Source: Branchinecta lynchi
Taxonomy: Eukaryota > Arthropoda > Branchiopoda > Anostraca > Branchinectidae
Direction: 5' to 3'
Assembly: GCA_023053575.1 (NCBI GenBank)
Contig: JAKZAP010000017.1
Location: forward strand, 10,113,501-10,177,500
Length of the DNA: 64,000 nt
Within the stretch, counting starts at the first letter, position 1. Every line of letters begins with the position of its first letter. The notes under the pieces are model-generated. The model was given only the letters and a program-made list of their open reading frames with translations, did no database searches and was not told the DNA's origin. Of this stretch, positions 10,986 to 61,545 are shown piece after piece. Made by a program: the position numbers and the translations under genes.

Positions 10986-11270
10986 CCGAGCCAGAGCCTG
11001 CCCAGCCACAAGACCGGCCCATTTTACACCCAATCGTTATCAAGACTGGGAATGACAAGGTGGAGCTTACATGTGCAGTGGAAGGATTCCTTCCCGGTTT
11101 GGTCCGCTGGTTCCGTAACGGGGAGGAGATCCCTAGTCCCGAGGTCGAGATGTCGAGAAAAACTTCTAAGCTGATTGTGAATCTTGAGGAAGCAGAAAAT
11201 GCTACGTTTGAAGCCAGGGTAGCCACTGATAAGTCCATTATGAAGTCGACAGCTACATTATCTTTAAAAG
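10986..11270 (+). CDS. Exon: I-set Ig domain lacking the second cysteine
   Basis: The exon is 285 bp, phase 1 to phase 1. The acceptor is AACCTTTCCAG and the donor is G|GTAAGA at 11,271. It encodes an acidic Pro/Glu linker (EPEPAQPQDRP), then an Ig domain: B-strand cysteine in VELTCAVEG, core tryptophan in LVRWFRNG, then SKLIVNLEEAENATFEARVA. The F-strand position that normally holds the disulphide cysteine reads Ala (TFEARVA), so the domain cannot form the canonical bond. That is tolerated in several muscle Ig domains. It is the first exon of the gene visible here; the entering phase requires an upstream exon outside the window or unrecognised in the first 11 kb. Confidence 0.85.
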
Positions 11271-13425: not shown

Positions 13426-13746
13426 GCTCCTCTGAGGCCCCTAACGTTAAGTCTGAATACTATGAAGCCCCTATTTTCATCACTGAACTAATGCCAATGC
13501 GCGTAATGGATGGGGAAGAAGCAATCCTGCGTTGCCAAGTCTTTGGCAAGCCAACGCCTCGTCTGACCTGGTATTGCAACGACGAGCCAATTAGAGAGCA
13601 TAGAGGATTGACAACCACTCGGTACCCATCTGGCGTTTCGGAGTTAAAGATCGCGGAAGTTTTCCCTGAAGATGGCGGCATGTACTCATGCAAAGCGGTG
13701 AACAAGGCGGGACAAGCCCTGACTCAGACGATCCTGTCGGTAGAAA
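13426..13746 (+). CDS. Exon: canonical I-set Ig domain
   Basis: The exon is 321 bp, phase 1 in and phase 1 out (donor GTAAGT at 13,747). It opens with a short linker (SSEAPNVKSEYYEAP), then IFITELMPMRVMDGEEA. The B-strand cysteine is in ILRCQVFGKPTP, the tryptophan in LTWYCNDEPI, and the F-strand signature is EDGGMYSCKAVNKAG with the expected second cysteine. This is the best-preserved I-set domain in the window, the fold used for filament packing in titin-family proteins. The codons before the linker match the frame left by the 10,986 exon, so the two splice directly. Confidence 0.92.
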
Positions 13747-19287: not shown

Positions 19288-19737
19288 AACGACATCATTC
19301 ACTTTCCTGGCCACGTATCATAAGCCTCCCGCCTTGCTACGGATGGGTACTTAATCCTTAATTTTGTTCATATCCTCTTTTCAAAGAAACAAACCAAAAA
19401 GGGCGGGAAAAGGAAGGAGAAGAGAAAACGAACCAGAAGAAAAAACGAATTACAAAAATCACTAAGCTAAGAAGAAAATCAACAAGCGAACTTTCTTCCA
19501 TCAAGCAAAACTAAAGAAAAAAAAATGTATTTTAAATAAGGAAAGACTGCCCAAGACAGGATAGCTGGTAGAGGCGACGCAACCTTTGCCTCTTCAGGTA
19601 GCCAGTGTATACTGCCGGAGCAAAAGTTTGACATTTTTGACGCCTACTCTCATAGAAATACACAAATTCGTGTCTTTCGGGCTTACCGATACTCGTTTCT
19701 ATCGGGCTTACGGAAATTCTCGTCTTTCGGGCTTATA

Positions 19738-19966
19738 GTATATTTTTTTCCGTTTTGGTCGGAGGATACCGCGGAAAAACGCGTTTTGACGAGGCGTTAC
19801 CGCGAAGCGATGACGGCCGAGTGGCGACACTGCAGCCCATCGTATATTTTTTATAGGCTTATCGTATATTTTTTTCCGTTTTGGTCGGAGGATACCGCGG
19901 AAAAACGCGTTTTGACGAGGCGTTACCGCGAAGCGATGACGGCCGAGTGGCGACACTGCAGCCCAT
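19738..19966. repeat. Near-perfect 126-bp tandem duplication
   Basis: The stretch from GTATATTTTTTTCCG to CAGCCCAT occurs twice, 126 bp apart, and reads as identical over about 105 bp. The repeat includes CGCGGAAAAACGCG. The duplication is recent. Reading frames on both strands through it are a by-product. Confidence 0.85.
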
Positions 19967-23403: not shown

Positions 23404-23701
23404 GCACCGATTGAAACAGATTCACCCACCACCATCACCAACCTTACTCCCCATATTGCAGTGGGCGAAGGGTCACCGGCTGTCTTTGAGGTTGTCGTGG
23501 GAGACACTAAACCCGAAAATGTGCGCTGGTTCCTCAACTCGCGCGAAATCCGTCCGAGCAGCGAATTCGATATTTCAACTGTAGATGGCAGAAGTGTTCT
23601 GCTCATTAACGAAGTCTTATTGGAGGATTCGGGCGAAGTGGTATGTCAAGTGGAAAGTGAGGGGGAGAAGAAGTTTACCGCTAGTCAGCTAGCGGTAGGT
23701 G
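23404..23701 (+). CDS. Exon: Ig domain lacking the first cysteine
   Basis: The exon is 298 bp, entering in phase 0 after a T12 acceptor tract and leaving in phase 1 (donor GTAAGT at 23,702). It encodes APIETDSPTTITNLTP then an Ig domain. The B-strand reads SPAVFEVVVGD with no cysteine. The core tryptophan is in VRWFLNSREI, followed by SVLLINEVLLEDSGEVVCQV with the F-strand cysteine present. It thus mirrors the 10,986 domain, where the other cysteine is missing. The entry phase fits the linker exon at 14,972-15,078 and the exit phase fits 25,474. Confidence 0.88.
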
Positions 23702-25473: not shown

Positions 25474-26540
25474 AATACAGAGACACCAAGATGTATCGCA
25501 AGCCTGACTGGGTCACTCGAATGGAGGAGATTCAAACTCAAATGAAAGGTAGACACGCGAGTTCCATGTCACGTGACAGCCTTGACTGCATGCATTGTGA
25601 GCACGTTTCCGTGAGCGATGGTGATGATTCGGTGTTCTACTCTAACCCCGAAGCCGTTTACAACTCTACCTCCGATATACGTAACCGCAAGTTGAGTGTT
25701 TCCAACTGTGATATTAATGTAGAGGTAGCAGTGCCGCTGCAAGAGCGATCACGCAGTGAAAAGCATGTTATGTTCAAGATTAGTACTAACACCACTAGAG
25801 ACAACCTTGACAGCATGTCCGAAAAGTATGAAGAGTTCGATGACAGTATAGGAGATAACCTGGACAGCATGCATAGTAGTACATATAGTTGTGAGAGTGG
25901 TAGTTTGGGGAATGAGTCGCCAGAGCACAAGTTGCTAACTCCTGCGTCTATCTTCGCTCAAAGTGTTCTGAATGGCTACCTTAGCAGTCATCGCAAATCA
26001 ATATCAGCAGCCATTGAGGCCTTAAGCTGTGAGGGTTTGAAGACCCCAGTTGAGAGGACCTTTGAACGGCCGCTGTTTAAGAGGGAACTAAGCTCCTCCC
26101 TTCCGGACTTGTCAAACACGTGTGATACAGAGGTTCTTATTTCGGACAGGGCCTCCGAAAAGACCTTGTCGCAAACTTCGTCAATGTTAGAGTTTCTTGC
26201 TTTAGAAGACGAGATGGGGAGTGACCCTGATGACATTAGCGACGGCTGTGACTTCATATCTTCTATATCGGACGATGATACTATCATTGGGGATGATGAA
26301 TATGAAGATTTGCGGGTGAATTACGCGGAAAATTTGAGAAGCAAACTTGGCCTGGAGCTTAGCCATAATAAGCTTCTTTCTCCCATTCTTGAGCTGGGGG
26401 AAACCCCCACTTCTGAGATATCCTACAGAAATGGTCTTCCCGGTTCGAGGCTGGCAACGCTGGATTGGAACGGCTGTCCCTTCCCTGGTCCTGGCTCTTC
26501 CAGGCATCAGGAGAATCAGAATCATGACGCGAATTTTTAA
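25474..26540 (+). CDS. Exon: Ser/Asp-rich disordered region, possibly terminal in a short isoform
   Basis: It enters in phase 1 and matches the donor at 23,701, giving YRDTKMYRKPDWVTRMEEI, a Lys/Trp-containing helix next to the third Ig domain. The remaining 330 residues are rich in Ser, Asp and Glu. They contain four variants of a DNLDSM motif (RDSLDCM, RDNLDSM, DNLDSMHS) and no fold. KHVMF and LRVNYAENL resemble RVxF-type phosphatase docking sequences. The frame runs to a TAA at 26,538 and no strong donor in the right phase precedes it, although weak GT sites exist (for example after codon AAT at about 26,431). A terminal exon of a shorter isoform is therefore plausible, by analogy with kettin from sallimus. 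The alternative is an internal exon with a weak donor joining 29,342. Confidence 0.75.
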
Positions 26541-29341: not shown

Positions 29342-29446
29342 CGAGCCAACAGGCTCCAATGTTCACAACACCATTATTGGACTGCAGGATCCAGGAGCGT
29401 GAGACGGCCAAATTCGAGTGCTATTTCACCGGAAATCCGGTCCCAG
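29342..29446 (+). CDS. Exon: first part of the fourth Ig domain
   Basis: The exon is 105 bp, phase 1 to phase 1 (donor GTAAAG at 29,447). It encodes SQQAPMFTTPLLDC, then QERETAKFECYFTGNPVP. These are the A-A' and B strands of an I-set Ig with its first cysteine (KFECYFTG). The domain is completed by the exon at 32,176, so the Ig is split by a 2.7-kb intron loaded with repeats. Both halves match in phase and in position of the break, just before the C strand. Confidence 0.85.
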
Positions 29447-32175: not shown

Positions 32176-32358
32176 GTGTGTCATTCTACCATAATGGTAA
32201 GATGCTGAAGAATTCGAAGCAGATCCAGATTCGTCTTAAGAACGACAGGGCCATCTGCTCCTTCTTCGAGTGCAGTATGGATATGGAAGGAGACTACGTC
32301 TGCAAAGCCGAGAATGCCGCTGGCCAATCGGAGACAAAGGCGACCCTCCACATTGCTG
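32176..32358 (+). CDS. Exon: second part of the fourth Ig domain
   Basis: The exon is 183 bp, phase 1 to phase 1 (donor GTAAGA at 32,359). It encodes VSFYHNGKMLKNSKQIQI, then RAICSFFECSMDMEGDY and VCKAENAAGQSETKATL. The C-strand tryptophan is replaced by Phe (VSFYHNG), while the F-strand DYVCKAENAAG is textbook I-set. Joined to 29,342-29,446 it makes a complete domain of about 95 residues. The minus-strand frames over the same bases are shadows. Confidence 0.9.
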
Positions 32359-33686: not shown

Positions 33687-33846
33687 CTTTGTCCGAAGAG
33701 GAACGCACGGAGTGGGAAGAAAAACGCAAGAGGGAATTGGAAGAAATTGGGAAGTTCGAGCAGGAAAGAAAAGAGGCCGAGGATAACAAGAAATCGGCCC
33801 GCAAGTCGAAGAAAGCCCAGTATGTCGCTGAGAAGAGAGCTGTTAG
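33687..33846 (+). CDS. Exon: charged Glu/Lys helix
   Basis: The exon is 160 bp, phase 1 in and phase 2 out (donor GTAAGC at 33,847). It encodes LSEEERTEWEEKRKRELEEI then a continuous Glu/Lys/Arg run to KAQYVAEKRAV. There are no helix breakers, and the alternating charge pattern fits a single long alpha-helix or coiled coil. It follows the fourth Ig domain and continues in the next small exon. Phase 2 out fits the 36,163 acceptor exactly. Confidence 0.88.
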
Positions 33847-36162: not shown

Positions 36163-36235
36163 AGAAGCCGAGATCATGGAAGAACTTAAAAAAGACATCG
36201 TGAAAGCAGAGGAAGATCTCCTTAAGATTGAAGAA
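36163..36235 (+). CDS. Exon: end of the charged helix
   Basis: The exon is 73 bp, phase 2 in and phase 0 out (donor GTAAGC at 36,236), after a TTTTCCTTTTTCAG acceptor. It encodes EAEIMEELKKDIVKAEEDL then LKIEE, continuing the Glu/Lys helix of the previous exon. Phases on both sides are consistent, giving a helix of about 78 residues in total. Confidence 0.85.
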
Positions 36236-37889: not shown

Positions 37890-39236
37890 GCTCCAGTCGA
37901 GAAGAATCTTCCCACTCACCAACCGATCACGGCCCTAGAAACGCACCTCAGTCAATCCACTCAGAAACTTGTAACACCAGCATCCAAGCCACAGCAAGCA
38001 CATCATAGACTATCCACGGTGGAACCTGTCACAAGCAGTGACATACTAGCCATGCAGTCCACCTCCACACTTCATTTACAGAAATCAGAAATGTCCAGAG
38101 CTTCTACTGATGTTTCCATACATGAATCAGTTATCAGCGTCGATACAACGGTTATGGACGGGCTTACAGACAGCCACTTGCAGCAGTACAGCGGTACTGC
38201 CGCTACGGCTGTAAAGGACCAAGTGGTGTCGGTCCAGACTTCCCAGATATTGGCTCAGGACAGCCTTGCAGATCTCCGTACAGATAGACAGGAATCTAGA
38301 GCCATAACAGCCAGTGAGGAATTTGCATCTGTACAAACTTCGCAAATCACCACTCACGATAGCCTGTCAGAGCTCCGTACAGATAGACAGGAATCTAGAG
38401 CCACTAAAGCCAAAGACGAATTAGTGTCTATAGAGACTTCACAAACCACCACTCATGACAGTCTTACAGAAATTAGTACAGTTAGACAAGAGTTCACAGC
38501 CACTACTTCTCAAGAACCTGCTCAGTCATCAACTATCCAGATTACAACAGCCGTAGAGTCCGCTGAGTATGCTCCCCAGCAGGAAACAGACACAGAAAAC
38601 GCTCTACAAGCAGTCACTCCAGTACGAGAAGCAGTTACAGTTGAGACAACCAGCATATCGTCACCGACAATGGTCAGTCCGGCACAAGCCCAAAACAACT
38701 TGATTTTACAGCAAGAGATTGTCAGAACAGAAACAGTTACAGAACAAAAGCCAGTAGCATTCGAAACAGAACAGAACTTACAGAAAGCAGCTATGACAAC
38801 TAAACTGGCATCTGAAACGGTTGTTGAGCAACCCCAGGTTGTCCAGACAACAACAACTATGAAAAAGAAGAAAGTTGTTAAGGAGGCAAAACAAATCATT
38901 AAACCACAGGAGGCTGTAGTTAGCTCTGAAGTCGTACCCAGTCAGGAATCTACAGTTTTACAGATACAGAAGTCGAAGGCCAAGACAGCTGTAAAGGAGC
39001 TGCAAAGCCATACTAGCACCGTGTCGTCAGAAGTGGTCACTTCCCAAAACGTCGAGAACATTAAGTCGGTGGAAACGAAGAAGGAATCAGCGTCTGCTGT
39101 TCTTGGTACCAAGCAGGCTGTAACTACTTCGGAAGCAACGTCAAACTTGTCGACTGCTAGCATTACAGGCTCACGTCCTAAACAGGAGAAAGCTGCAGAG
39201 AAGAAGGAGCCAAAACAGACGAAAGAGGAATATAAG
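37890..39236 (+). CDS. Exon: Thr/Ser/Gln/Val-rich repeat region
   Basis: The exon is 1,347 bp (449 codons), phase 0 in and phase 0 out. The acceptor TTTCGCGCAG is good; the donor AAG|GTTACT is weak but is the only one that joins the CBM21 exon in frame. The protein is low complexity. Residues about 97-205 hold three 33-residue repeats (99 bp apart at 38,277, 38,376 and 38,475) with the core VQTSQITTHDSLSELRTDRQ. Later parts are rich in Thr, Val, Gln and Lys with a basic patch, TMKKKKVVKEAKQ. It probably acts as an extensible spacer. The two minus-strand frames here are shadows. If the donor is not used, the frame stops at 39,275. Confidence 0.85.
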
Positions 39237-40177
39237 GTTACTAGCATGAAGAATTTCATAACTAGCTATAGTTAAAACCAATTTACAGGAATGATAACTA
39301 TAGCAACCTTAACACTTTATTTATCTTTTTTTACAGGCCAGGTAGATTTAGCGGCCGTAACAAATAGACAGAATAACCAATTAAAATTATATCTTTCTTT
39401 TCAGTTCTTCGTTATTTTATGCTCTTAACCCAGTTTAGAAATCTATAGTGCGACAACTAACTTTTCAGATAAATAACCAGACGTTGTACGTTAACAGCGC
39501 TCATTACAGGACATATTAACCTAAAACTGCATCGCAGTTGTCGAGATGCAGCTGTATCTTTCGTCCGTAGTTTATAATATTAACTCTTTCCGTTATTTTC
39601 TTTCTTATTTACCTATAACCTAGCGTTGTTTTTGTATTACAGTTTATATGTTTGAGGGGTCAGGTGGTTCTATAATTACTTTTCCCAGTAAAGAAATTTT
39701 CTCTTCTAACCATTCTGCATCTGGATTCTCAGGAAGTTTAAAATAGAAAAGGCGTCGGTGGAGTGCAAAGTTTGGACAAAAATAGGATAAAATAAATGAA
39801 CGTTGATACTTTAATTCAAGAAATTCGAGGAACATCAAACCTCGCGGGATCTCTGGAGCTGTTTTTTTGCCACAAATCCGTGTCCAAATACTTTGCGGGA
39901 AATGCTTGACGTAAATCGAAATGTCTCCCTGTGATCTTAATAAAAGAGGAGTCTTTAGCCAGCTCCATTTCAGACCACCAGTTATTTTAGTAATAATATG
40001 AATGACTCTAACAATTTCTCTGGAGGCTGTTCAAATAAACCAGTTGACGGTCCACACCTGCTTTAAACTGATTTGTGGTTTATGGGTTCACAACGCTTTC
40101 AGGAATACGATTACGTTATTAGGTCCCGCTCGTGTCCATATCTTATATTTCGCAATACTACCGCCTACTACTTTTAG
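39237..40177. other. Intron without recognised features
   Basis: AT-rich intronic DNA. One minus-strand frame (39,644-39,838) shows no motif. The acceptor tract at the end reads CCGCCTACTACTTTTAG. Confidence 0.4.
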
Positions 40178-40613
40178 GTGGTCGAAGTTCTCACCGGGAA
40201 CTGGATTGAACAGAAGCTCGTCAAGGTCTTGCCGACCATCGAAGACGAATCAACGACTGAAAAGGCGCTGCGAACGAACATTGCCGTCGAAGATGTTCAG
40301 CTCTCCGAGAGTGGGCGCGAGATCGAGGGACGCATAAAAGTCGCCAATCTATCTTTCCACAAGGACGTTTCCGTACGGGCAACGTGCGATTCGTGGAAGA
40401 CGTACGAGGACCACGCCGCAACATACGTCACGTCGGAGGAGTCAGGCTTGGAAGTGTTTGGGTTCAAGTTCGAAATGCCCCGTCATGTTCCGGCTAATAA
40501 GGTGGAGATGTGTGTCAGGTTCGCGTGCGACCAGGGAGAGTTCTGGGACAGCAATGAGGGATCTAACTTCGTAGTTTTGCCGCCGTACACCTTCCACCCA
40601 AGCCTTGTACCAG
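40178..40613 (+). CDS. Exon: CBM21 glycogen-binding module
   Basis: The exon is 436 bp, phase 0 in and phase 1 out (donor GTAAGT at 40,614). After a lead (VVEVLTGNWIEQKLVKVL) the sequence matches carbohydrate-binding module 21 as found in PP1 glycogen-targeting subunits (PPP1R3 family, insect Gbs proteins). Cues are IAVEDVQLSESGREIEG, IKVANLSFHKDVSVRA, CDSWKTYEDHAATYV, FGFKFEMPRHVPANKVEM and VRFACDQGEFWDSNEG followed by SNFVV. The WKTY, EFWDSN and N-F tail positions form the sugar-binding surface in this family. The module is about 105 residues and appears complete in one exon. It would be expected to bind glycogen or other alpha-glucans. Both splice phases agree with the neighbouring exons, so it reads as part of the same transcript, although a separate nested gene cannot be excluded from sequence alone. 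Confidence 0.88.
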
Positions 40614-42143
40614 GTAAGTCTACATTCCATATTGGTGTACGTAAATAAGTCAGTCTGCCAAGAATCCATCTATTTGGGACACCCGATACCTAACTCTGGG
40701 TGCCTCTATGTGCTGTAAGCCTGACCTACACAAAGGACTTCTGGTTGGTTGATTTCTGAACTCCACTAAAATCATCGATATTTTATTGGGTTGGGGTACC
40801 AGCATTCAGCATTTATCAGAATAAGGTAGCCAAGAAACAGGGCTTGTTGTACACTAATATAGATACACTCACGTGAGACGGGAATCTGAATAGTCAGGCA
40901 ATGAACAACTTAAAGGAACACTCTTGCTTATTCTGCCTTTTATACTATACTTAGTTCCCATATGGAATTATAAGCTTCTAAAATCCCCACCTTTCTCCAT
41001 TGTTTCGTTTCGTAACTACGAATGTTTGGTGCTTTTTCGGGCCTGCCGAGTTTTCCTGTCACTCAACGAAACGTTTGCCGGAATCTTCATTGTCCGCTGA
41101 CAACTCTTTCACACATAAGGATGTGATAATCATATGTTTATTACATCTTTTGTTTGCTTAGTTTTCCCACTTTTTAACCAAGGCATGTTAAGTTTTCAAA
41201 TATTTTGCGCCCAGCCGCCGCGTCGGAGAGCAGGAAGGCTGGATAAAATGGACAAGTGCTAACGAGAGAATCGCTAGTTTCAGGTGGAAAGTAATGATAT
41301 TTTAGTGTCCCGAGAATGACCGAGTCGTTCAGGGAGACCGAACCGAAGGCTGATAGACGTACCGAGGACCTCTTCTGCAGGTATCGCCTGCCCTGATCCG
41401 AATAGACAGAAACAAGACCGTTTAGGAAACTAAACTACTTTTATTATTGATGATTAGGTATTTGGATCTTGCACATAATCTGCAGAAAGAAGTTAAAAAG
41501 CTATGTGCAAAACAGGCAACTTACATTAGATGTACAGACACAAGTAACTACACAGAAATAACACCAGCCCAGCACCTCCAGGTAAGCAAGACGCACTGAA
41601 GTCTGCTGCCATGTACTGGAGTTTATATATTGCTCCAGTACAATGATCTTTGGAACACACATGGATATAACAATAATAATAATAATTTATTTCTAACCCA
41701 CTGAACAAAAACAATGTGAAGATAGTGGAGTAAAGAAAGAGGAAAGAAACAAATAAACAACTAAAAAAACACTAATACAACAAAATAAACACAAAAATCA
41801 ACAGAACAAACGGATGAGCCCGTGATATGGAGTAAGCCGTTCACACGCTTGTCCAGATATTTTATATCGGCCGTTATATTGGCAATGGTATATAGCAAGA
41901 AGCAGGCGGCTTTCCAGGCCTGTGGAGCGAGACAGTGAACGAACTCTGAGTCACACCTGGATCCGGCATTGGTAGAGGCGAATGTACTTTGTGTTGCTAC
42001 AGTATTTTTGAAAAAAATTTTTAGGGAAAAGATCATTTCTAGTAAGAGTTGTGCTTTAACTGGCAAGTTGATCGCCCCTTGTTATTATTTTTTCTTTATC
42101 CATTGCTCTGTACTGCATCCTCAATGAGAATAATAAATTGTAG
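40614..42143. other. Intron with a TTAAAGGA-type element end and a LINE-tail-like repeat
   Basis: At 40,912-41,140 a block beginning TTAAAGGAACACTCTTGC and containing TTTCACACATAAGGATGTGA resembles the block at 42,471-42,610. Around 41,678-41,790 a TAATAATAATAATAATTTAT run with ACCCACTGAAC and an A-rich tail resembles the repeats at 4,560-4,860. No exon is seen; the minus-strand frame 41,761-42,066 has no domain. Confidence 0.4.
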
Positions 42144-42323
42144 GTGTCAAGGCTCTCGTTCACCTTGCTGTTCAGGAAAGTCTCAACATTGCCGAAATCA
42201 CTCCTGAGCTTATCGCAAAAGAATTCAGTGCTGGGGAATCCCCGCTCGCCGACATCGCAAAGCTTGATCTCATGGTGAAGAAGGGGGTGACCATCTCCGA
42301 AGTGATGACATGCTTCGAAGCTG
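42144..42323 (+). CDS. Exon: helical segment, part 1
   Basis: The exon is 180 bp, phase 1 to phase 1 (donor GTGAGT at 42,324). It encodes VKALVHLAVQESLNIAEI, then PELIAKEFSAGES, and LADIAKLDLMVKKGVTISEV with MTCFEA. The last part begins a repeat that recurs in 44,715 (see there). The composition predicts alpha-helices separated by short loops. I do not recognise a named family. The 142-residue minus-strand frame over this exon is a shadow. Confidence 0.82.
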
Positions 42324-43768
42324 GTGAGTTTTCTTGATTTTCTTTCAGCAATCACACCGGGCAGTAATTGACTGCTGCCAAATTTTACTACTCCCACTAA
42401 AACCGAAGTGATTAGCCGAAACAGGATTTTTTCATTATATTTCTTTTGACGGTACACGTTACTTAAAGGACCCCTCTTGCTCATGCTGTCTTTTATATTA
42501 TCTCTAAGTCTCTTATGGTATTAAAAGCTTCTTAAATTCCGGCCGTTTGCCATTAATTCGATGGTAGCTCCGACTTCGGCCGAAAGCTTTCACACATAAT
42601 GACATGAGAAGCTTCATTTTGGAAGATAATAATAATGTAATAATGTACTTTATTCCCTTAATAGCTTGTATTGAACATGCTAGCATTGCATCGTCGTTCA
42701 CAAAAATTACAAATGACACAATTACATCTATACGTACAAACTTAACTGGAATTAAAATGTTGGGTGAAATAAGATACAAAAGATTTCAGATAACGATCAG
42801 TAGAGTTCATGGGTGTCTTACTAGTCTTTTGGAAGCAACATCCCTCTGTCTTTGTCGCGTCTTGGGCCTGCTACTTGCTAGGGTCTGAAAATCAGGTAAA
42901 ATGGCACGATGCGCGTGGGGTGCCAGACATTTGCTCCCAAACACTATTGTCAGCTGATGGCGTCTTTCAGCAAGTGTTGGCAGGTCAAGATATGGTAGGC
43001 TATCAGGTCTGCCTTATGTTTTCGTGTCTCGAGCAGAACCGTCTGGGGATTCACGTACCTGTAAAGACACGATTTGACGTGAATAAATTCAGATCGAAAT
43101 CTTGACAGCGAAAACCACCCTTCACCTTGTAGATGCAACTCTATTTTTCAGTTATCTTAGACGCTTACCAAGAAGGTGAATGGACACCAGATCTGATCTC
43201 TAATTTCTACCACATGTGTCTACTTTTTACGCTTTCACGTGAGAGAAAGAGTAGTATTATTACTGGTACAAGTTTTTTGCATGACCCCAAGAACAAATAA
43301 GCTAGAACCTCCGTCTCCGTATCTCTGTAATATGTCGAATATTCGCCATGCCCTGACCGATGCAAACGAGCGGAGGTTAGGAGCTACGCGGCACGTCACT
43401 GTTTGTTACCTTTACAAATAGTTATACCGCTGTAAAGCCGCGTAGAAGAAACTTTCATAGTACAAGGCGATAGAGCAGCTCAACCTGCCTCCTGCACTAA
43501 TTCCTTTTGTATGAGCAACGGTGAAGACGGAAGTAGACGGGTATCAACTCAAAGCTAGATCAAGTACCTCTGGCTCAGCTCAGTTTTGTCGGGGTATCCA
43601 TAGTCTCGGCATTGAACATAAGACGGAGGTTCTGTTAGATTATTTGTTCTTGATGGGCCATAACGCCTATTCCTGGAGGCAGTACAGGGGGGCTTTTCGC
43701 ACATCAGTTCCGGTGGATCTCGTGGTTGTATATATAGTTATATCTACAACCATATGTACGACTTCCAG
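42324..43768. other. Intron with a TTAAAGGACC-type fragment
   Basis: The block 42,471-42,610 starts TTAAAGGACCCCTCTTGCTC and ends near TTTCACACATAATGACATGA, a relative of 40,912-41,140. The rest is unassigned. Frames at 42,604-43,105 and 43,521-43,940 lack motifs, except that the last overlaps the next exon out of frame. Confidence 0.4.
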
Positions 43769-44028
43769 GCGAATTCTCGTCTCTCACTACTCCGGAAGCT
43801 CAGACTGGTCTTATCCGCATTTCGGAACTGCTGAGTCAAAGCGCCATCGTATCCGAAGTTCTTTGCGAGGAGGTCAAGGGCCTCGTCGAGAAGACGCCTA
43901 TTGGTTTAAAGGCCTTCTTGAAGATGGTGGAATCGGTTGAAGAAAGCGTTAAAGTGGAGGAGATGGTTACTCAGTTGAAAGCCCAGGACTTTGCTGACGA
44001 CGTCAAGCCCATTCAGGAGATGGCTAAG
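43769..44028 (+). CDS. Exon: helical segment, part 2
   Basis: The exon is 260 bp, phase 1 in (acceptor ACTTCCAG) and phase 0 out (donor GTATGT at 44,029). It encodes GEFSSLTTPEAQTGLI, RISELLSQSAIVSEVLCEE, VKGLVEKTPIGLKAFLKMV and EESVKVEEMVTQLKAQDF, ending PIQEMAK. It completes the first repeat copy (from LADIAK in the previous exon) and starts the second (PIQEMAK). Everything looks alpha-helical, with leucines and valines at regular spacing. Confidence 0.82.
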
Positions 44029-44219
44029 GTATGTCGTCAGGGTTCTTAGTAGGAACGGGAACTTTACTGACAGTGCTTTAGTATTCGGACGAAAAATTTG
44101 CAGTTTTAATGAAAACCTATTAATAAAGTATGCAAGCCTACTAGTGTTGCATGAGTGCCGTCTCAACTGTTTAATGTAATAATATAATTTCGCCTCTATA
44201 AATTTCTCGCGACTTTAGG

Positions 44220-44480
44220 CTACACACTAAATTGAATTTCAGCCAGGTGGTAGTCGACACCTGCTTTGAAATGGTTAATATTTTCGGCACTTACAGCACT
44301 TTCTTTGAGATTATTCCAATATTCTACTATTCGGTTTCTAAATTGTTAAACACAACGCCACTATTTCTGTTGTTACCTCAGATCGAGGGTAAAACTGCAC
44401 TCGAGTAAAACCACATCCCTATCATTTGGTTTCTGTAAATACCTGCTCCCTCTCCCTCCATGGATCCGTAAAATGAAACT
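44220..44480 (-). pseudogene. LINE ORF2 C-terminal fragment
   Basis: Minus-strand reading gives FRNRIVEYWNNLKESAV, SAENINHFKAGVDYHLA and a stop at about 44,220. That is the signature tail of CR1/L2-like LINE proteins (a V-x-x-W-N-x-L block followed by a FK-x-x-L/V-D block). Upstream codons are broken by stops. It is a dead 5'-truncated insertion in the intron. Confidence 0.65.
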
Positions 44481-44714
44481 AGCTACGAATCGTAAAATTA
44501 TCGAAAAGCAGCATAGATTCCGTTCATTTTCATATTTGGTGTGTCTCCCACATTTGTACCTCTATATGATACCTTCCAGACCACAACCTGGACTTCTAAA
44601 CAATTTTGCTTCACTTCACCTTCCCAGACCCGTCTCGACGAAAATGGATGGCGGGAATCTGGAAGGTGAAGCCTGGTTTTAATTGTATCAATCTTAACAG
44701 CTCTTTCTCCCTAG

Positions 44715-44991
44715 GTGTCTCTCATGTTGAAGGAAGGCGTCACCACCCAAGAGGTGGTCAAGTTCGCTGAGGCTGGAGAACTTCCGTCTCTTGTTAAACC
44801 GGAGTTCCAGGTTCCACTCATCCGATTTGTTGGTCAGCAGGGTCACAGTGCAATTGTGGCTCAGGTAATTGTTGAAGAATCCGCAGCGCTCTTGAAAGAA
44901 CAGCAGCCTCTGCCAGAGTATCAGGAAGTTATGACAGAGCCGGAACCAGCCAAGTTAGATGTCGCCCAGGTTGCTATGCCAGAAGTGAAAG
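44715..44991 (+). CDS. Exon: helical segment, part 3, second repeat copy
   Basis: The exon is 277 bp, phase 0 in and phase 1 out (donor GTAGTT at 44,992). It encodes VSLMLKEGVTTQEVVKFA then EAGELPSLVKPEFQVPLI, RFVGQQGHSAIVAQVIVEES and a Pro/Glu tail ending in VAMPEVK. Aligned with the earlier copy, the pairs are LDLMVKKGVTISEV / VSLMLKEGVTTQEV, FEAGEFSSL / AEAGELPSL and SQSAIVSEVLCEE / GHSAIVAQVIVEE. So a repeat of roughly 60 conserved residues, spaced about 100 apart, spans exons 42,144-44,991. Confidence 0.85.
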
Positions 44992-46557: not shown

Positions 46558-49272
46558 ATGGCATCTTTGTCGCATCGTCTACGAAGACCAAGATCTTTTC
46601 TTGTGGAAAAGTGCAAGAAACAAGTCTCGCCCTGTCATGGGTCCAGCAGACGAACAAGGATGACTTAACTGTAGAGAATCCAGTAGACAGTGGAGTAGAA
46701 GTGATGATGACATTTGTAAAGCCTTCACAGCCAGAAACGTTTAAACACGGAATTATGCCAGCTTCAGTTTCCGAAATAAAAGCCACTTTACCAGTAAAAG
46801 AAGTATCAGTACCAGGATCCTCTATAGTAAAACTCAAGATGACTGACGAAAGGATTGTGAAACCTGTCAATGATGATCCTGCAGAATATCCGTCGAGCTC
46901 ATTCTTCTTAGATCTCAGTAGGAAGTTTAAAGAAGAAAATGGTATCGCGGCAAGCGCATCCAATCTTTCCAAGCCGAAGAATATGTTGCCGAATCCAGTT
47001 ACTAAAATATTGTCAGGCGTGACTAAGGATACTGAACCGATCATCTCGACTGGGAATCTTGAGCCGATCTTACCTGATGTCAGCATGTCCACGAGGCTTG
47101 GAAAAGCGATTGTGCGGGGATGGAAATTTACTAACACGACAACAGATGTGGTTGACTCAAAAACCGGTCTAGTTCGAGAACCCCAGAGTTCCTTTGTTAG
47201 AACTGGCCAGGATTCGCTGGCCAAACTTACTACTGGAAGTGAATCAACTGACGGAGGATCAACAGTCCAGCAAAGAGCGCTGGTTTTAGTCTGTTCAGGA
47301 GGAGAAAGAGATATTAATTGGCTTCAGTCTCCGATTTGGCTATCTGTACCGCTAAGTTTCTCTGAAAAAGAAAAAAGTCTCAAACTGCCTGAAACTTCTG
47401 GAATCGTTAAAGAAAGTACTAAGAATCTTCTTCATATCCAATGCGCAGAGCATACACATGTAGAAGATCTATTGACTGGAAAATTTGGTCCACTCAGGAC
47501 AACAGGAGGAAATAGTTTGGAAGAGTTAGGATCCAATAGCTTAAAGTTGACTGTCTCTGCCGATAGAAATACAGCATCGACTGAAACGAAAGCAATTCGT
47601 CAAGAGGCTTCATATGTGCAGATCCTATTTGACTGAGACTGCGACTGACGTCTCACCGCGCTGTGAGAAGAAGCCAACCATTTCATCAGGTTCATTAGCT
47701 ATTCAGACAGCTGGTAATTCGGAGTTTATGGAAGAAATTCATTCTTCTCGGGAACAGGCTGTACGGGCAAAGAAGCTAACGATTCTTCATAAACATTTAC
47801 TGGGACTTCTCCATGTGTCCTTCAAAAAAGTGAACTGTTTACTTGAGGAAAAGTGCTCTGCTGTGCAGCATATCCGCCAGACTAACACTGAAAGCAATTC
47901 GGTTATGTGTTCACAACCCTTGCTCTTTGAGCACGTTGAGGAATTGTATTCCCGTCAAGTGACAAGGCATTTGTCTTTGCAAACTGCACACGTCCTAGCA
48001 AAATGTTTGTGCCTGTGCCAGGAAGTAATCACATATTTGGATTTTCCCATGTCAGACTAGCTACAGGCGAAAGTGGGTATACATGTAATCCACCCTGTAG
48101 ACAGGCTGATTGCTAATGTTTGGCAGATTGTAAGTAGTATAGATGGACCAGCTAGTTCCTTGGGAAAGAGGTTTTTCCAGTCCGAGGCAGAAGGTTTCAT
48201 TCTACGAAGACATGCGATATTAGACACGATTGCTTGCGAAGCAATTCCGCCTATTGTACAAGTTAGACCTGAGGTTGCTCTTCCATTTGTGAATGCAGAT
48301 TCTCGGACATTTGCCTTTGCTTCTGTAATGATTCCAGAGGTACTATGTACTTTAGCGAAACCAATACTTGCCAAAGAAACCGAGAGAGAGATGCTTACCA
48401 CTGACGGTCTAAAAGAGCAGTTCCTCGGTTCAGTCCCTAGCGTTGATAAGACCAGTGTTATCGCCTTTTTTGTCCCACACCAGGCAGGGTGTTTGGGAAT
48501 GCTGGAATGTGCGTGTCGTTCTCACAGAATGTTATCGGGAAAGGTTCAAGGAAATCCTAAACCGCTTTGCCAACACCTTCAGACAGAAGAGCAGACGAGC
48601 GATGTCCTCGTATCGCCTCATTCCCTACTGCAAAAGACGCGTCTACTTTACGTGATTTCACGCACTTTAGGAACTCCTGAATTCCCAGGGAGTTTAATCC
48701 TTAAGTGCGAAAGTGACTCCCAAGCTTAATCGGCAGATGAAAGAACAGCGCTTCTCCTTGCCAACTCAGCCGGGAAGACGCACCGACGGAAAAGGACCAG
48801 ATTCTTACAAAATTCACGAAGAGACACCAGGTTCAAATGACGGTGCTGTAGATCCAGACAAACTCAGCAAGGCTCCAATAGAGAGGAATCCGGACTTTTC
48901 TCCGACTGCGGTGGAATCTAGCTCTTCTGAACCGTCTTCGGCACATACACCTCTAGTGGCACTAAGCAGCTTTCACGCCTGCCAAGAGGAAGACCCTGAA
49001 TGCCAAGATCTGTGGTTACCGACTACACTTATATTAGCTTGTAAGACTGCTCACGTCTTGCCAGTTTTTGGTCAAGTCTTGGGTGACCAGGATATTTTAC
49101 CATCCGGCGAGATGAAGTCAGAATCTCCCCTTTTTTTACTTATCTCTCGGGTCTCCAGTCACTGGAGCAGCTAACCCAGCATGTAGTTCTTTATTATCTA
49201 TCAGTTTTCAAGAAAAGGAAGATCTTTTTCCTCCCCATGAGCCTATTTTAGAACCTATTACTTTTCTTGCAG
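46558..49272 (+). pseudogene. Decayed repeat-region exon, bypassed by a downstream acceptor
   Basis: Coding-like sequence of the same composition as the exon that follows continues for 2.7 kb but is broken. Frame 0 is open from 46,558 to a TGA at 47,634. The likely continuation then moves to the next frame (open from about 47,614), meets an in-frame TAG at 48,058, and runs to a TAA at 48,727. It shifts again (open from about 48,713 to 49,172) and again near 49,131-49,137 in a C4T7 run, returning to frame 0. All three shifts are in the same direction and lie at short homopolymers (TTT, AAA, C/T run). A strong acceptor, ACTTTTCTTGCAG at 49,272, lets exon 45,499-45,549 skip the whole segment in frame. 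I read this as a former PEVK-type exon part turned into intron; assembly indels are the alternative. Confidence 0.6.
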
Positions 49273-52200
49273 CCGTTCCAACTTTAATCGGGGACCGATC
49301 CGTAACACCGGTACAACACCACTTACATGACACACCAGCTATTATAGAAACACCTATGCAGAAGGCCTCAATCTCCGCTAATCTTGAACCAACCGTGTTT
49401 CCCATGTCTCACCAAGGCCATCAGATCTTGCCAGAAAGACATGCGAAAGCAATATCCGAACAGCTATTCGATTCGAATGAGCAGCTCTCTTCTGGGTCGG
49501 TCTTAACTGTGAACTCCAAAGCTAATACCAATAGGTTGCCACACGAAACTGTTTGTGTACAGGAAGTATTACTTGAAGATGTGTCCCTTCCATTTTCAGA
49601 TGCAGTTCCAGTGAAACACGAAGCAAAAGTTGTTGCTGACAAATTTTCTTCTAATGTCATACTGGAGGTACAGAAACTCGATTCAGAGGGGCAGCTTACT
49701 CTTCCGTTTGTTGTCAAAGAACAAGCCACAGTATTTTCCGAGAAAAGGCCTAATGAAGTTCTAACTGTGGATGAACCTCATGTTGCACAGATGCTGTCCT
49801 TGCTAGCTCTTAATGAGACGCCAACCTCAAAGCAGGCGAAGCCAGTAATTGTTCAACAAAAATCTCAGATCGTAGAGTCTCAACAACAACAGCTTGATTG
49901 TGAAGTCAAAATGATTCCTTTGAATGCGGAAATCCAGGCAACTGAGGCCTTGACAGTTGAAATAAGGCGAGAGGCGCTTACGGTCGGTAAGATACAGCCA
50001 GACCAATGCGCTTCAGGACTGCTTTGTACCGATAAACCAGTGGAACAACAAGCAAAACGCTTCGTAACAGAGCGTCAGGCAAGAGTCGTGGTCAAGCATC
50101 AAAAGCTGGACGCGGGAGGACATTTTTCACCAACGGTCCCCAAGAGTGAACAGGTGACTGCCTCGTCTGTAGAGAACCTGAGGCAGGCTGTTAGCATCGA
50201 AGAAGCGCATCTTGACGATTTCACTCGTGCCTTGTTATCTTGTGAGTCTTATCCTGTCCCGAAAGCAAGGATTGTAACAACTGAACAACAGGCATACCTC
50301 ACTTATACACAAGAACAGTTAGACGCAGGGAAGCCCCTTACACACCCAAATGTGCAGGCTGAGACAAGGAAAACATCGGTTTACGAAACGAAGCGAGGAG
50401 CACCAATTGTTCAAGAGGTTCAGCCAGCTGATTTGGCATCTATTTTGTCCTCTTCAGATTCTCCTCTTGCCTGTAACGCAAGAAGCATTTCAACCGAAAA
50501 GTATGCCAAAGTAACCTATAAACAGCAAGAACTTGATGCCGGACAGCCGCTATCCACTCAAGCTGCACAGGAACAACAAGCCAAGACCTCGTCTGTGGAA
50601 AGACCAAGAGAAGTGTTTAGCATTACCGAACTACAGGTAGGTGACCTGGCAGCTTCGCTGATATCTGCTCAATCTCCCGAGGAACAAAAAGCTAACACTG
50701 TCGATATACATCAGCAAGCTCAAGTTATTTACACACAGCAGCGACTCGATTCTGAGCAAAAGCTGACTTTGCCGACTTCTCATCTTGAGAACCTGAAAAC
50801 TTCGGAAACCCAGACACGAAGAAAAGCAGCGACGATCCAACAGATCCATACTGGTGACGCGGCCTCTTTTCTTGCCCCCTCCACATTACCAACACAACGT
50901 GCAAGGAGTGTATCGACCGAAAGACATGCGAAATCTACCAGTCAACAGCAAACACTCGATGCAGAAATGATTCTGGTTTCAAGCAGCGCACAGTCAAAAC
51001 ACGTTGTACCTTTCTCAGATGAAAGACCCCAACAAGCGATTAGCATCAAAGAAGTCCAGCCTTCCGATTTTGTTCAGTCATATGCACAGCTAGATTCGCC
51101 CGCGCATCAGACAGCAAGGACAGTTTCTTCAGAAAGTCATGCCAAAAGCACCTACAAACAGCAGCATCTTGACGCTGAACAAGAAATTGCCTCGTATCGG
51201 CCTACGCCAGAAACCCCGGAACTGTCTACCGAAATCGCGCCACGAGAAGCAGTAAATGTCAGTGAAATTTGTTTACTTGATGCCTCGAAGTTAATCAATC
51301 CTACTGAATTACCGAAAACTGTCCGTGCTCGAAGTATTTCTTCCGAGAGACAGGCCAAGGTCACTTTCAAGCAGCAAAAACTTGACTCAGAGGAGCAACT
51401 TCTTTTGTCCGCTCCGATACTAGTAAAAGCAAAGAAAACATCCAGAGAACTGCTGGCTGCCACAACCGAAATGAACCTCGCTGTAGATGGTTTAAGTATG
51501 GAGCCAAACCAAATCGTCAAAAGGGTGGAAGTTGCGTTTATGACTACGTCAAAGGCAGAGCGCGCTGCTGGGGAATCTTGTACGTCTCAAACGTTTGATA
51601 AAGAATCAGATATCATCATTAACAAACCTCCTATCGCCAATGCTGCATCTCAGTTGTCAAAAAAGCAGTCCGTGAATGTAGAAGTACAGAAACTCTTCGA
51701 AACCGTAGGTTCTGCTGAGATAAGTCCGAAACTGAACGCCAGTTTTGCCAAAGCCAGCCTAGCGGCTCAAGAAAGATCGGCTTCGTCCTTAGAACACAAA
51801 GAAGCATTTGAAAAAGAGTCTCAGTTCGACCAGCAAATTCCTAAATCTCGAAAAGCTAGGACAGCTTCAACCGAGAGAAGTGCTGCCACTACAGAAAGCT
51901 CGATAAGCCTCGTTGCCCCTTTGCAGCTGACAAAGGACGCAGCAGTGGACATACAAACTGCTATAGTCTCAGTAGAAGGACCGAAAGCCGGAGCTGTCAA
52001 AATTGACATGGTGGATATACCGGAACGAATGAAAGACTTCGACTCAGCAGTGCTGGTGCCACAAAAAGCAAGGACTGCTTCTACTGAAAGAGTATCTACA
52101 TCCACTTCAATCGATCGTGCAGTTGATAATATTGGAACTTTGGAAATAGCTAAGAAGTATGAGCCTATGATTGCGTCCATAATTGTCAGCAAACAGGAGA

Positions 52201-53853
52201 GCATTGTAGTTGCCGAAGTCGACGTCAGAGGAAAAGAAGAAGAACTGGCTCGTGATATAGCAGTTTCTGCTTCCATGGTCTCAAATGCTGATCTGCTTCA
52301 AGCCCATTCTGTCGGTTTACATGAAACTTATGTGCATGGAGCACCCCTGCACGTTGATATGCCTCAGCCTATTGAAGCTTGTCGATCTGCTGATCTGCTT
52401 CAGTCCGTTTCAGTAAAGAGCAGTCCACTCCCCTTGACAAATGTTGCTGACTTGGAAGTTAAAGTTCCTGAAGAGGTTTCTGGATCCTTAGTTTTTTACC
52501 CAATGTCTGAACTAACTGTTAGTTCTACAGATGCTTCCTTCTCTCTCGGGAATGTGGGAGATACTGGCGTGAAATCCTCGGAAGTCGTGCTTAATTTTAT
52601 CTTGCACAAGGCACACGCTTCAGAGGAAATCAAAACTATCGAAACTACCAGTGTAAGCTCAGGTACAAATACGTCTGCAAAAAGTGCTGAGGTAAAGGTT
52701 GAACAGGCTCATTCCGTCGCTACTGACTCTGAAGATGTGAGAATCCAGCCCGAAGAAAAGGCGACAACCGAGACACGCGAACCCATGGTTACGTTGTCAG
52801 GTCTGGTATGCAGCAGTGAGTTTCAACCCATCGTCTTGCTCCAAACCACAGCACTTGGCTCGAAAATTGCGGAAGATACAGCATCAGTCAAACTTACAAG
52901 CGCACAACCGTTGATGACCGACGCTTGTGAAGTTCTTCATGGTGTTGCAGATACGATTTCTGAGAAGCTCTCGGAAGCTAAAGCGACTGTTTCGGTCTCG
53001 ACGATTCTTATTGGACAGAACTCGTCAACAGTGCCTTTACAAAGTACACACGATGTTAAGAAGTTCTCTTTAGCAAGTGCTGTTGCAACAGAAAGTCTGC
53101 AGCCATCGCCATGTATCCAGGGAACTGGTGCTGACGTGGTTTCACAAGCAGCACCACTGACGATATCGGAAGTAACCACTGAGACTGCACGCTGCATAGA
53201 TACTCCTGATGTTTCGCTGAATGTAAGTCAGACAATCACACTGGAAAACACTATTCCTAAGAACACAGACAAACTGGAATTGCAGGCTGCAATAAAGCTG
53301 GAGCAACCCTCTGTCACGTCCACTTTATACGTGCCAGATATGTTCGATTCCACGATGATTTTGCCCAATCGCCGACCAACAGCCGAAACTTCTAAGCTTT
53401 TAGTTGTCCCTCACAACGAGGTACCGTGTGTTTCTGACGTCGATGTGATGCAGCAGTGCAACAACTTAATGACGATGTTGCCCAAAACTGAGGTAGCATT
53501 GCCAGTCTTCCCGACACAAGAGCTGAGAGACCTCCCAGTAGCTACCAGAACTGAAAACATGTCCATCCAAAATGCCGATGATGTTTCAATCCTGGTACTG
53601 AAACAAGAAAAGGTGAAAGTTCGATCCAATCCTGTTTCATCGCTGGATCACACTGGAGCAAGAGCTATGGAACTTGCAGGTAGCTTGGAGTTGGAACTGT
53701 TCAAAAGTGTAGTTGCAGAAGGTACTGTCACCGCTGTTGCAGCTATTGCAGCCTCAGTCACTGTAGAAGCCACCATACCGGAAACAGATGAGAAGATTCC
53801 AGAAGCTGTAACGTGCCAGCAATTAGATGAGAAATTCTTGCAGCCAGCGTCGG
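49273..53853 (+). CDS. Giant exon: 71-residue repeats, PEVK-like elastic region
   Basis: The exon is 4,581 bp (1,527 codons), phase 1 to phase 1 (acceptor CTTTTCTTGCAG, donor GTAAGT at 53,854). Ten consecutive units start near 49,410, 49,623, 49,836, 50,052, 50,265, 50,478, 50,691, 50,901, 51,114 and 51,327. They are almost always 213 bp (71 residues) apart. The consensus features are ARSVSTERHAK, then a QQ-LDAEQ-L block, then a VSI-EVQPSD block. Two later units at 51,855 and 52,068 (KARTASTERS / KARTASTERV) keep the same spacing. The remainder is Ser/Thr/Val/Ala/Glu-rich and diverged. It contains no tryptophan-centred fold and few glycines. It is likely a disordered, extensible filament segment, like the spring region of insect titins. 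The many minus-strand frames in this interval are shadows. Confidence 0.9.
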
Positions 53854-54469: not shown

Positions 54470-56995
54470 ACACCGTTCATGCTGATAGTATAGAGGATAT
54501 CAAGAAAGCTGTCATAGAATCAACACAGGCAGCTGTCAGCTTCAGCAGCAATGTACCAGTCACCGTGCACGACGTCCATGTTGCGCAGGGCACTCAAAAT
54601 TTGGAAACGAAACAGGCAATACAGGACAAAGCTACGCGTACTCTCTCTACTTTTGACGCCACTCAAGTATCACAGACTCAACCGGAGCTACGCGAAGAAA
54701 TCTTCGTGACACCCCGGCCCACACCAGGTACTGTAGCAGGACAAAGTATGCGAGCTCTTGATAGTGTCACCACGTCACAAGTAGATACTGTTAATACGGT
54801 CACTGAGCTCATGTTACAAGAGCAACCGCAATTAGTAGTGGCAGAATCTCAAGTAAGACTGTCAGAAACCATCCAAACTATATCCGTCTCCGCTTTACAA
54901 GGCTCAGAGTCACTTAATACACAGCAGACAGCAACTGGACAAGCAACATCAGTACGAGTGGCTCCGTCAAAACAGGCCCCTCAGATTCATATTGTGACGG
55001 TCATCGACAAGGAAGCGCAGATACCTGATGAAACAGCTCGTCCGGAGAAGGCAAAGACGTCAGCTCTCCAACATCAAGTTGCGTCTTCTGCTGAAGTCCC
55101 GACAAATTTCAAAGAAGGAATCCTTACAACAGCGTCTGCAGCTTCCGATCATGCAAAGGCATCTACTGCTGAAATAAGTAGAGGTGTTGCGTCAGTTACA
55201 CAAGTAGTGACAGGAGTCAGCGAACCACCAGTCGCCCCGCAGAAGAATACAGAGAAAATTGCCAAAATGGTTGAAGTTCCGTCTTGTGCAGTTGCAGAAG
55301 CTACCAAACCGGATGTGCATCTAAAAGAGAGAAAAGAAGAACCTAAAACAATTCCTGTCGGTGAGAAAACCTCACCGCTTCCGGAAATTGACAACAAACC
55401 TGTCATTGCCGTTCTTAAAACTCGACAAAACTCGTCTTTGGTTGTCGAACAGGCTCAGACTCAAATAGAAACCCAGCCCCTAGACATTAAACAGGGCAAG
55501 GCGGTTAAACCCAATGTGAGCATGATCAACCAGCAAACACTCGTCGTGAAGGAAGAGCAAGTCCAAGCTCAGACTACCGATGCCCCCCCACTAATAGACC
55601 AGGAGACCGCTACAGAAGCTGTTGCATGCAACCTAAGTGGTCCTGCTATTATCGAAGAGCAGAGCATGCTAGACGGGCAAATATTACCACTAAAAGCTGA
55701 CCAGAAAAACTCAGCAAAACCTACCGTCACCATGATTAACCAGAAGTCAGTCTTGACAAAAGAAGAACAGGTTGAAGCACAAACTGAGGAAATCCTATCG
55801 CTTCCAGGAAAAGAAATCGCTACCGAAGCAACGGTGACTAGTACTCAGTGCGGACCGGTCATTGTGGAAGAACAAAGCCTTCTTGAAAAAGAAGCGAAGT
55901 CGCTAGAACCAAAAAAGAAGAAATCAGCGAAATCCACTGTGATCACGGTTAATCAGCTCACGGCAATGGTCAAAGAAGAACTAGTGGAAGCGCAAACTGA
56001 TGAGATTCCGTCGCTACCGGAAAGAGAAATTGCCACCGAGGCCAACGTTTTGATTAAACGCAGTGGACCGGTTGCTGTGGAAGAACAGATCATGCTTGAA
56101 AGTGAAGCCAAGCCACTGGAACCAAAGAAGAAGAAATCTGCCAAGCCTACCGTGAGCACAATCAACCAACAAACAGTAAATGTCAAGGAAGAACAAGTGG
56201 AAGCACAAACTGGTGATGTTCCGTCACTCCCAGAAAAGAAAACAGCCGCTAAAGCTGTTGTTGTTAGCAAACGCAGTGGAGCAGCTGTTATTGAAGAACA
56301 GCACTCCCTTGAGGAACCCCAGAAAGTACGTAAATTGTCCTTACAACAACAGAAGGCCACCGAGACGGTTGAAAAGCCACAACTTCAGGCAGTGTCAAAA
56401 CCAAAACCAGTTGTCAAGAAGCACTCTCCCCCAGAAGAGCAAGTCTTCCCGAAGGTGGTCCTGAAAAAGGCAGAGACGAAGAAATTCGTACCTCAACAAG
56501 CGACCCTCGAAAAGGTCAGTCTGAAGTCCTTCGAAACCGAGGAAGTTGTTGTAGAGAAAGTCGTTAAGAAGCAAGAGTTCGATTCCGACCTGAAACTCGA
56601 AATTAAAGACTTAAAATGGGAGGAGCGCGAAGTGGAAGCTTTGGAAAGTGTCGAGACCGTCCAGCTGAAGAAGAAAAAGAAAAAATCCAAGCAGGAAGAC
56701 AATACTGCTTACACAATTAAAGAAGAGGCAAATGACGATGTCACTATCAAGAGATCTTCCACAGTGAAAGAAGCTCGTAAGGAAGAGTTTGAAGAAGAAG
56801 TAGTCCTGAAGGTTAGAGAGGAACAAGAGGAGTTCTCTGATGACGACGTGACACTGCGCGAGGACACGCAAGAAGCCTTCAACCTACGCCTACCGCAGAA
56901 GGATGTTCAGATATCCGAAGAGGCCCGTGAGTCATTGTCGTTCAAGATTCCCGCCATGCCGCAGAAGCCAGCCCCGAAGATGGAACTTCAAGAAG
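54470..56995 (+). CDS. Giant exon: KEEQVEAQT repeats and acidic/basic PEVK-like tail
   Basis: The exon is 2,526 bp (842 codons), phase 1 to phase 1 (donor GTACAC at 56,996). Four tandem 71-residue units begin at exactly 55,501, 55,714, 55,927 and 56,140. Each reads roughly AKPTVSTINQQT, KEEQVEAQT-E-PSLPEKE, SGPVIVEEQSLLE, then PKKKKS in three of them. After 56,353 come Pro/Lys and Glu/Val stretches (KPKPVVKKHSPPEEQVFPK, FETEEVVVEKVVKKQEF). A strongly acidic stretch follows (EEVVLKVREEQEEFSDDDV), then FNLRLPQKDVQISEEARE and a Pro/Lys end. This alternation of Glu, Val, Lys and Pro is the hallmark of titin PEVK springs. Confidence 0.92.
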
Positions 56996-58549: not shown

Positions 58550-58909
58550 GTCAGTACTTAACCTCTGGATTTCATTCATTCATTTATTTATTTCCCTCAA
58601 AGAATATATAATGAGAAGTACCAAAATAAATTAAAAAAAACACTTGACCTTCGTATCTTTAACTTGGTAAATTTTACCTCCAGGAAAAGATTCAATGGGA
58701 AATTGAGATATGCTTGGGTAGCCTTCTGAATTCTTTTACCTATTTTTATAGACAGTTCACAGTTTACGAAAAAAAAGAAGAACACTAGCTCCAGTGATAA
58801 ATTATGAGTTTGGCCGCGTCGTTACCACGGACGACTTGAAGCGCTTGCGCAGAGTCGTTGGGCCTGATTGTTCATCAGCAGTCAGATTTTGATAACTTTC
58901 AAATTCCAG
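58550..58909. other. Intron without recognised features
   Basis: Contains a TTCATTCATTCATTTATTTATTT run at 58,570-58,591 and otherwise nothing recognisable. Confidence 0.45.
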
Positions 58910-59029
58910 TGGAAGAAGTAACAGCTTTACAGATCAAAGAAGGCGACGCTTTTCATGCACTTCAGACGTACGTGGCTGAAGGTGCCGACGCCATGCATCT
59001 CATTGAAGGTGAACGCGTTTACGTCCTTG
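58910..59029 (+). CDS. Exon: N-terminal half of an SH3 domain
   Basis: The exon is 120 bp, phase 1 to phase 1 (donor GTAAGT at 59,030). It encodes VEEVTALQIKEGDAFHAL then QTYVAEGADAMHLIEGERVY with VLG. The pattern (a first beta-strand with the A-L-x-T-Y motif, an acidic RT loop, then L-x-EGERVYVL) is the first half of an SH3 domain. The part with the WW motif must come from the next exon, beyond the window. An SH3 after a PEVK region is a feature of insect sallimus. The intron that splits the domain carries the polymerase-bearing element to the right. Confidence 0.78.
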
Positions 59030-61198: not shown

Positions 61199-61545
61199 TT
61201 TGTCAAATGAAGAGTAGTACAGAAAGTGGGATTCCAGTACACACAAATTTGTCAAATGAAGAGTAGTACAGAAAGTGGGATTCCAGTACACACAAATTTG
61301 TCAAATGAAGAGTAGTACAGAAAGTGGGATTCCAGTACACACAAATTTGTCAAATGAAGAGTAGTACAGAAAGTGGGATTCCAGTACACACACATTTGTC
61401 AAATGAAGAGTAGTACAGAAAGTGGGATTCCAGTACACACACATTTGTCACATGAAGAGTAGTACGAAAAGTGGGATTCCACTACACACACATTTGTCAC
61501 ATGAAGAGTAGTGAAGAATGTGCGAAATCCGTGTACACATTTTTC
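61199..61545. repeat. 49-bp tandem array between divergent genes
   Basis: Seven copies of a unit containing TTTGTCAAATGAAGAGTAGT and GTGGGATTCCAGTACACACA stand head to tail. The first five are near identical and the last two are diverged. The array sits in the gap between the minus-strand genes and the plus-strand polymerase, where a shared promoter or replication signal would be placed. Confidence 0.9.

Follow-up and report, generated by a model that had tools for sequence, protein, structure and literature searches.

Why does an exon for a glycogen-binding module lie within a muscle gene of the titin type? The exon occupies positions 40178–40613 (+ strand) of a 64,000-nucleotide stretch of the Branchinecta lynchi genome (NCBI GenBank assembly GCA_023053575.1, contig JAKZAP010000017.1, positions 10,113,501 to 10,177,500 of the forward strand), here called the window. 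Positions are given in window coordinates, negative values lying upstream; the region studied is the window with 100 kb on each side (264 kb). The exon encodes a CBM21 module of the kind borne by glycogen-targeting subunits of protein phosphatase 1 (PP1), and it is flanked by exons of a gene read as sallimus, the arthropod titin. It is probably an in-frame sallimus domain, shuffled from a PPP1R3B/C-type (Gbs-70E-like) gene without the PP1-docking exon and serving as a glycogen tether in the I-band. How glycogen is positioned within myofibrils, and in the spaces between them, has long been asked; such a domain, if confirmed, would be a direct, genetically testable anchor linking the fuel store to the contractile lattice.

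The CBM21 exon and its predicted fold

The exon is a stop-free frame of 145 codons, in which the original prediction, made from the letters of the sequence, had read a complete PP1-type CBM21. A profile search bears this out: Pfam CBM_21 (PF03370) is matched at 94.5 bits against a cut-off of 28.9 (E 6.2e-27), over exon residues 32–133 (40271–40576, +) and profile positions 4–112 of 113. NCBIfam gave no match to this exon, nor to the helical exon described below. The closest solved relative in a PDB sequence search is human PPP1R3C/PTG (7qf7, E 1.3e-16), followed by PPP1R3B (2eef, 3.3e-15) and PPP1R3A (2m83, 1.2e-14). In an AlphaFold2 model, block means of the predicted local distance difference test (pLDDT) are 70–90 across residues 31–130, and the top structural matches of the predicted beta-sandwich are PTG, PPP1R3B, PPP1R3A and the Rhizopus CBM21 (Foldseek, VIA-align).

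The contact residues N177, F180, K182, W193, Y203, W246, D247, N249 and N253 are all retained; H stands in place of E181 and E in place of D214. With its sugar-contact residues mostly kept, the module would be expected to bind alpha-1,4-glucan. That it is part of the titin protein and has lost glycogen binding, serving as an extra beta-sandwich or a protein-binding surface, is unlikely: both substitutions, the long branch of the module in the tree described below and the Ig-like character of the CBM21 fold (PMC9582199) would suit such a change of use, but the residues listed above are all in place, and the H at E181 of site II, which speaks against binding, is likewise present in the canonical paralogue L001.

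Gene context and splice junctions

An immunoglobulin (Ig) profile, seeded with three Ig domains of the window, iterated and run on the open frames of both strands, gave 59 matches, all 59 on the + strand, from -97 kb to +116 kb, one of them weak (E 2.2). A kettin-like Ig array stands at -97 to -63 kb; 1,299 codons of its longest open frame (1,787 codons) were compared with the PDB, with titin as the best match. PEVK-like segments, an SH3 domain and C-terminal fibronectin type III (Fn3) domains are all present at the locus. The SH3 domain is split between 58853–59029 and 75260–75412, the second half past the window end (joined halves, PF00018, E 6.2e-10), and the Fn3 domains lie at 110–111 kb and 124–127 kb. 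The order Ig, PEVK-like, SH3, Ig, Fn3 is that of sallimus, and the gene is therefore read as sallimus; the CBM21 exon is on the same strand as the Ig and PEVK exons, as had been proposed. The kettin array is separated from the later exons by about 25 kb that hold two antisense frames and four low-confidence predicted exons, for which reason a single transcript joining the array to the later exons is not claimed.

Exons were chained by a dynamic program with codon scores from the Ig and PEVK-like exons, the CBM21 exon being outside the training set, and with generic splice matrices; the exon penalty was varied from -18 to -30 in seven settings, with -24 as the reference model. A variant with a low exon penalty and self-training was rejected after producing hundreds of tiny exons. 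At -24 the chain spans -38 kb to +127 kb in 47 exons that encode 8,645 residues without a stop, and a phase-consistent, continuous transcript through the Ig, CBM21, PEVK, SH3 and Fn3 exons is thereby predicted. The CBM21 exon enters at phase 0 and leaves at phase 1, between an S/T/Q-rich exon of 449 amino acids (37890–39236, phase 0 out) and an exon at 42144–42323 (phase 1 in). Exons gaining more than 30 bits numbered 12 of 72 in sense and none of 16 in antisense; eight of the 12 overlap training exons, and the four outside training are 37890–39236, 40178–40613 (33.9 bits), 43769–44028 and 44715–44991.

Matching phases on both sides of the exon had been predicted. Upstream this stands, the junction 39236–40178 being recovered at all seven penalties. 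Downstream it stands in part, 40613–42144 being recovered at four of the seven (-24 to -30). The exon's own sites are good (acceptor 7.6; donor 12.2, the best donor among the 47 exons). At the 3′ junction a tandem unit begins (GVKALVHL..., its G encoded by the codon that 40613/42144 divides); it aligns with GLKAFLKM... in exon 43769–44028 with a whole-unit score of 136, a value reached by none of 300 shuffles. A stop codon lies just upstream of 42144, and no other AG was seen that could open an exon containing the GVKALVHL residues. Because of this alignment, the upstream stop and the want of an alternative AG, entry at 42144 in phase 1 is favoured despite its poor matrix score.

Several points tell against inclusion of the exon in a sallimus transcript. 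The evidence comes from one genome, with transcript structure from gene prediction, and the program would also link same-strand exons of neighbouring genes; the chain alone is therefore no proof of one transcript. The facing sites are weak: the donor at 39237, already singled out as poor in the original prediction, scores 3.9, and the acceptor at 42144, which that prediction did not name, is weaker still (-0.4, the lowest of the 47). At penalties -18, -20 and -22 the junction 40613–42144 gives way to an in-frame path from 40613 through a 44-base exon (41538–41581, +) to 42176, which lies only 2.0 bits below the chosen path at -24; this less favoured path, taken at three of the seven penalties, would drop the repeat-conserved GVKALVHL residues. 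An in-frame skip from 39236 to 42176 is also available, with a strong acceptor (10.1), and many transcripts could omit the CBM21 exon by that route. This skip scores worse than inclusion: with all splice sites in 39240–41899 removed, the score fell by 31.1 bits and the path became the skip.

The weak flanking sites bear on two further accounts of the exon. In the first, which the strong acceptor at 42176 would also suit, the exon is a remnant, decaying or seldom used, and is as a rule skipped in frame; to this we give hardly any weight, for the frame is open, with conserved residues and good codon usage, and the skip would delete GVKALVHLAVQ, which has a counterpart in the second tandem unit. 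The second, a separate PPP1R3-like gene nested on the same strand in a titin intron, is very improbable. It would explain why the exon's own sites are good and the facing titin sites weak, and L001 is a paralogue of this stand-alone kind; but the exon's 3′ end is the best donor in the chain of 47, where the L001 exon reaches a stop instead, entry into the next titin exon is possible in matching phase at a repeat-conserved residue, and the 264 kb yielded no RVxF exon resembling those of the paralogues (searches given below).

Paralogues, origin and PP1 docking

The genome search covered the 575.7-Mb assembly (216 contigs), with all three candidates scored; counts are lower bounds. At least three CBM21 loci are present: the exon in the titin gene, L001 (C6) and L002 (C8). 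L001 is a stand-alone gene of the PPP1R3B/C type. Its RVxF motif (KKKVIFADDRG) is in an upstream exon, which ends ...FLDQ and is followed by a gtacgg donor; the exon for the CBM21 starts at phase 0 with V, 35 residues ahead of the domain, and runs to a stop. The two exons, 14 kb apart, would be spliced directly. In L002 (PPP1R3/Gbs-76A-type) a single open frame holds both RVxF and CBM21; its best protein match, among the matches listed, is from Artemia franciscana (46% over the whole query, E 9e-119). The two CBM21 domains have 71% identity, and none of the other 23 compared rows exceeds 53.3%.

A tree built from 25 CBM21 rows puts the module of the titin gene in a group with L001 (support 94/84), adjacent to human PPP1R3B/C and separate from the 76A group. 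The module sits on a very long branch (2.63); the tree program cautions that joins of such branches may be false, which lessens the weight of this placement. Like that of L001, the titin-gene exon starts at phase 0 with V, 33 residues ahead of the domain. From this shared start, the grouping with L001 and the RVxF exon that was not found, the CBM21 exon was apparently gained alone; the titin gene thus probably captured a glycogen-binding exon without the PP1-docking exon. This would be a clear case of exon shuffling, in which glycogen binding was taken from a two-function protein and PP1 docking left behind.

The original prediction had added that PP1 might be tethered to the filament as well, which is not supported. 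A tblastn search of the 264 kb found no RVxF exon resembling that of L001 or L002 (best E 1.1 and 0.41 among the matches listed), and the single match of an RVxF-exon pattern run on both strands of the same region, at -23682, falls outside the predicted exons. A PPP1R3 subunit carries an RVxF motif shortly before its CBM21; at the titin locus the CBM21 is present and, beyond the loose matches given below, such a motif was not found. The isolated CBM21 of PTG does not bind PP1, the RVxF motif being what binds it, according to PMC9582199. That the filament nevertheless recruits PP1 is quite improbable. Loose RVxF matches do occur in the modelled protein, among them KHVMF in exon 25474–26442 (one match, 0.197 expected from shuffles) and KPVAF in exon 37890–39236, but their number in the exons of 23–60 kb, four against 2.98 expected, is near the shuffled level, four being reached in 176 of 500 shuffles.

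Known filaments and the surrounding locus

The module shares CBM21 sequence, predicted fold and sugar-contact residues with PPP1R3B/C (G_L, PTG) and with the Gbs-70E type, a name which we take to denote insect glycogen-targeting subunits of this kind. It differs from PPP1R3B/C in having no RVxF exon that could be found and in belonging to a giant filament protein rather than a small PP1 subunit; with L001 it has in common the phase-0 start of the exon and differs in ending at a donor rather than a stop. PPP1R3A (G_M) is a CBM21 protein of muscle that anchors glycogen to the sarcoplasmic reticulum. That protein combines a membrane anchor with PP1; in the present case glycogen would be anchored to the sarcomere, with no support for PP1 binding.

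On the side of the filament, the Ig array, PEVK-like exons, SH3, Ig and Fn3 follow one another on one strand as in Sallimus/kettin/D-titin, in which an SH3 domain is presumably present too. Crayfish I-connectin, as we assume, has repeats of about 70 residues together with PEVK, to which the repeat in exon 49205–53853 is perhaps the counterpart; we know of no CBM21 in that protein. Drosophila Sls is described in the accessible part of PMC9886281 with 48/52 Ig domains in the longest isoform, a PEVK part and, at the C terminus, five Fn domains; unlike the present gene it is given no CBM21 there, and the word "carbohydrate" is absent from the main text.

The module follows Ig domains and the S/T/Q-rich stretch and precedes helical units, 71-residue repeats, PEVK-like segments, SH3, Ig and Fn3, and is therefore placed, on the predicted chain, in the elastic I-band. 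Site II of CBM21 would grip alpha-1,4-glucan with modest affinity, and many parallel sallimus molecules per sarcomere would keep glycogen particles alongside the thin filaments, close to the Z-disc. It is put forward tentatively that the spring region of a titin-type filament thus bears a glycogen-binding domain that holds fuel granules, and perhaps senses stretch, without PP1.

No description of a CBM21 in a titin-family gene was found in the open-access literature. The P0001 protein-database search, which is insensitive, gave no relative among nine candidates, and a 10,000-residue read-through query (the length setting the length range only), scored on its CBM21 part and equally insensitive, gave none among 10. 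How little these negatives weigh is seen from the listed PPP1R3 relatives, only 42 of 120 of which share any 5-residue word with P0001, L001 sharing none. When the database, which includes arthropod proteins, was queried with L002, 7992 candidates were scored and 773 matches reached E <= 0.001 (120 listed). Among viral contigs six stretches fitted a pattern, none of them a relative; among genome contigs 29 did, with one relative, from a SAR324 bacterium (30% over residues 55–131). A CBM21 in sallimus may be widespread in crustaceans and have gone unreported.

The remaining exons of the window are all on the + strand and, unless stated otherwise, belong to the exon-chain model. Ig exons, also matched by Pfam and the Ig profile, are at 10986–11270, 13426–13746 and 23404–23701. 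The exon at 25474–26442 that holds KHVMF is unique (323 amino acids), lies between Ig exons, starts near RKPDWVTRMEEIQTQMKG and has no Pfam match. The Ig domain upstream of the CBM21 is encoded by two exons, 29388–29446 (from the penalty -18 model) and 32176–32358 (also by the Ig profile), and two predicted charged exons follow (33687–33846; 36163–36235). After the CBM21, the tandem helical unit starts in 42144–42323 (alternative start 42176) and continues in 43769–44028 and 44715–44991; across 42144–44991 the unit has no Pfam match above cut-off and is predicted to be all-helical at low confidence (AlphaFold2 pLDDT 59, too weak to name a fold).

Two predicted low-confidence exons (46558–47459, donor 1.5; 48737–49116) precede the large exon 49205–53853 (1,550 codons), which is in part a 70–71-residue repeat, with motif spacings of 143, 142, 71, 70, 71 and 71. 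An E/V/K-rich, PEVK-like exon (54470–56995) and the first half of SH3 (58853–59029, also by Pfam) complete the series. Upstream of the window, the two minus-strand frames of the 25-kb gap, -49437..-48478 (320 amino acids) and -43578..-42499 (360 amino acids), gave no Pfam match at E 0.001 and resemble membrane receptors by eye. A 126-bp unit is repeated 1.9 times (99% identical) at 19730–19966, between predicted exons. The titin intron that splits SH3 holds, past the window end, a Maverick/Polinton-like element (61726–72787, +) with genes for an A32-type packaging ATPase (E 2e-13), an integrase core (E 9e-15) and a double-jelly-roll protein (E 2e-27); beside it, at 61199–61512, a 49-bp unit is repeated 6.4 times (98%).
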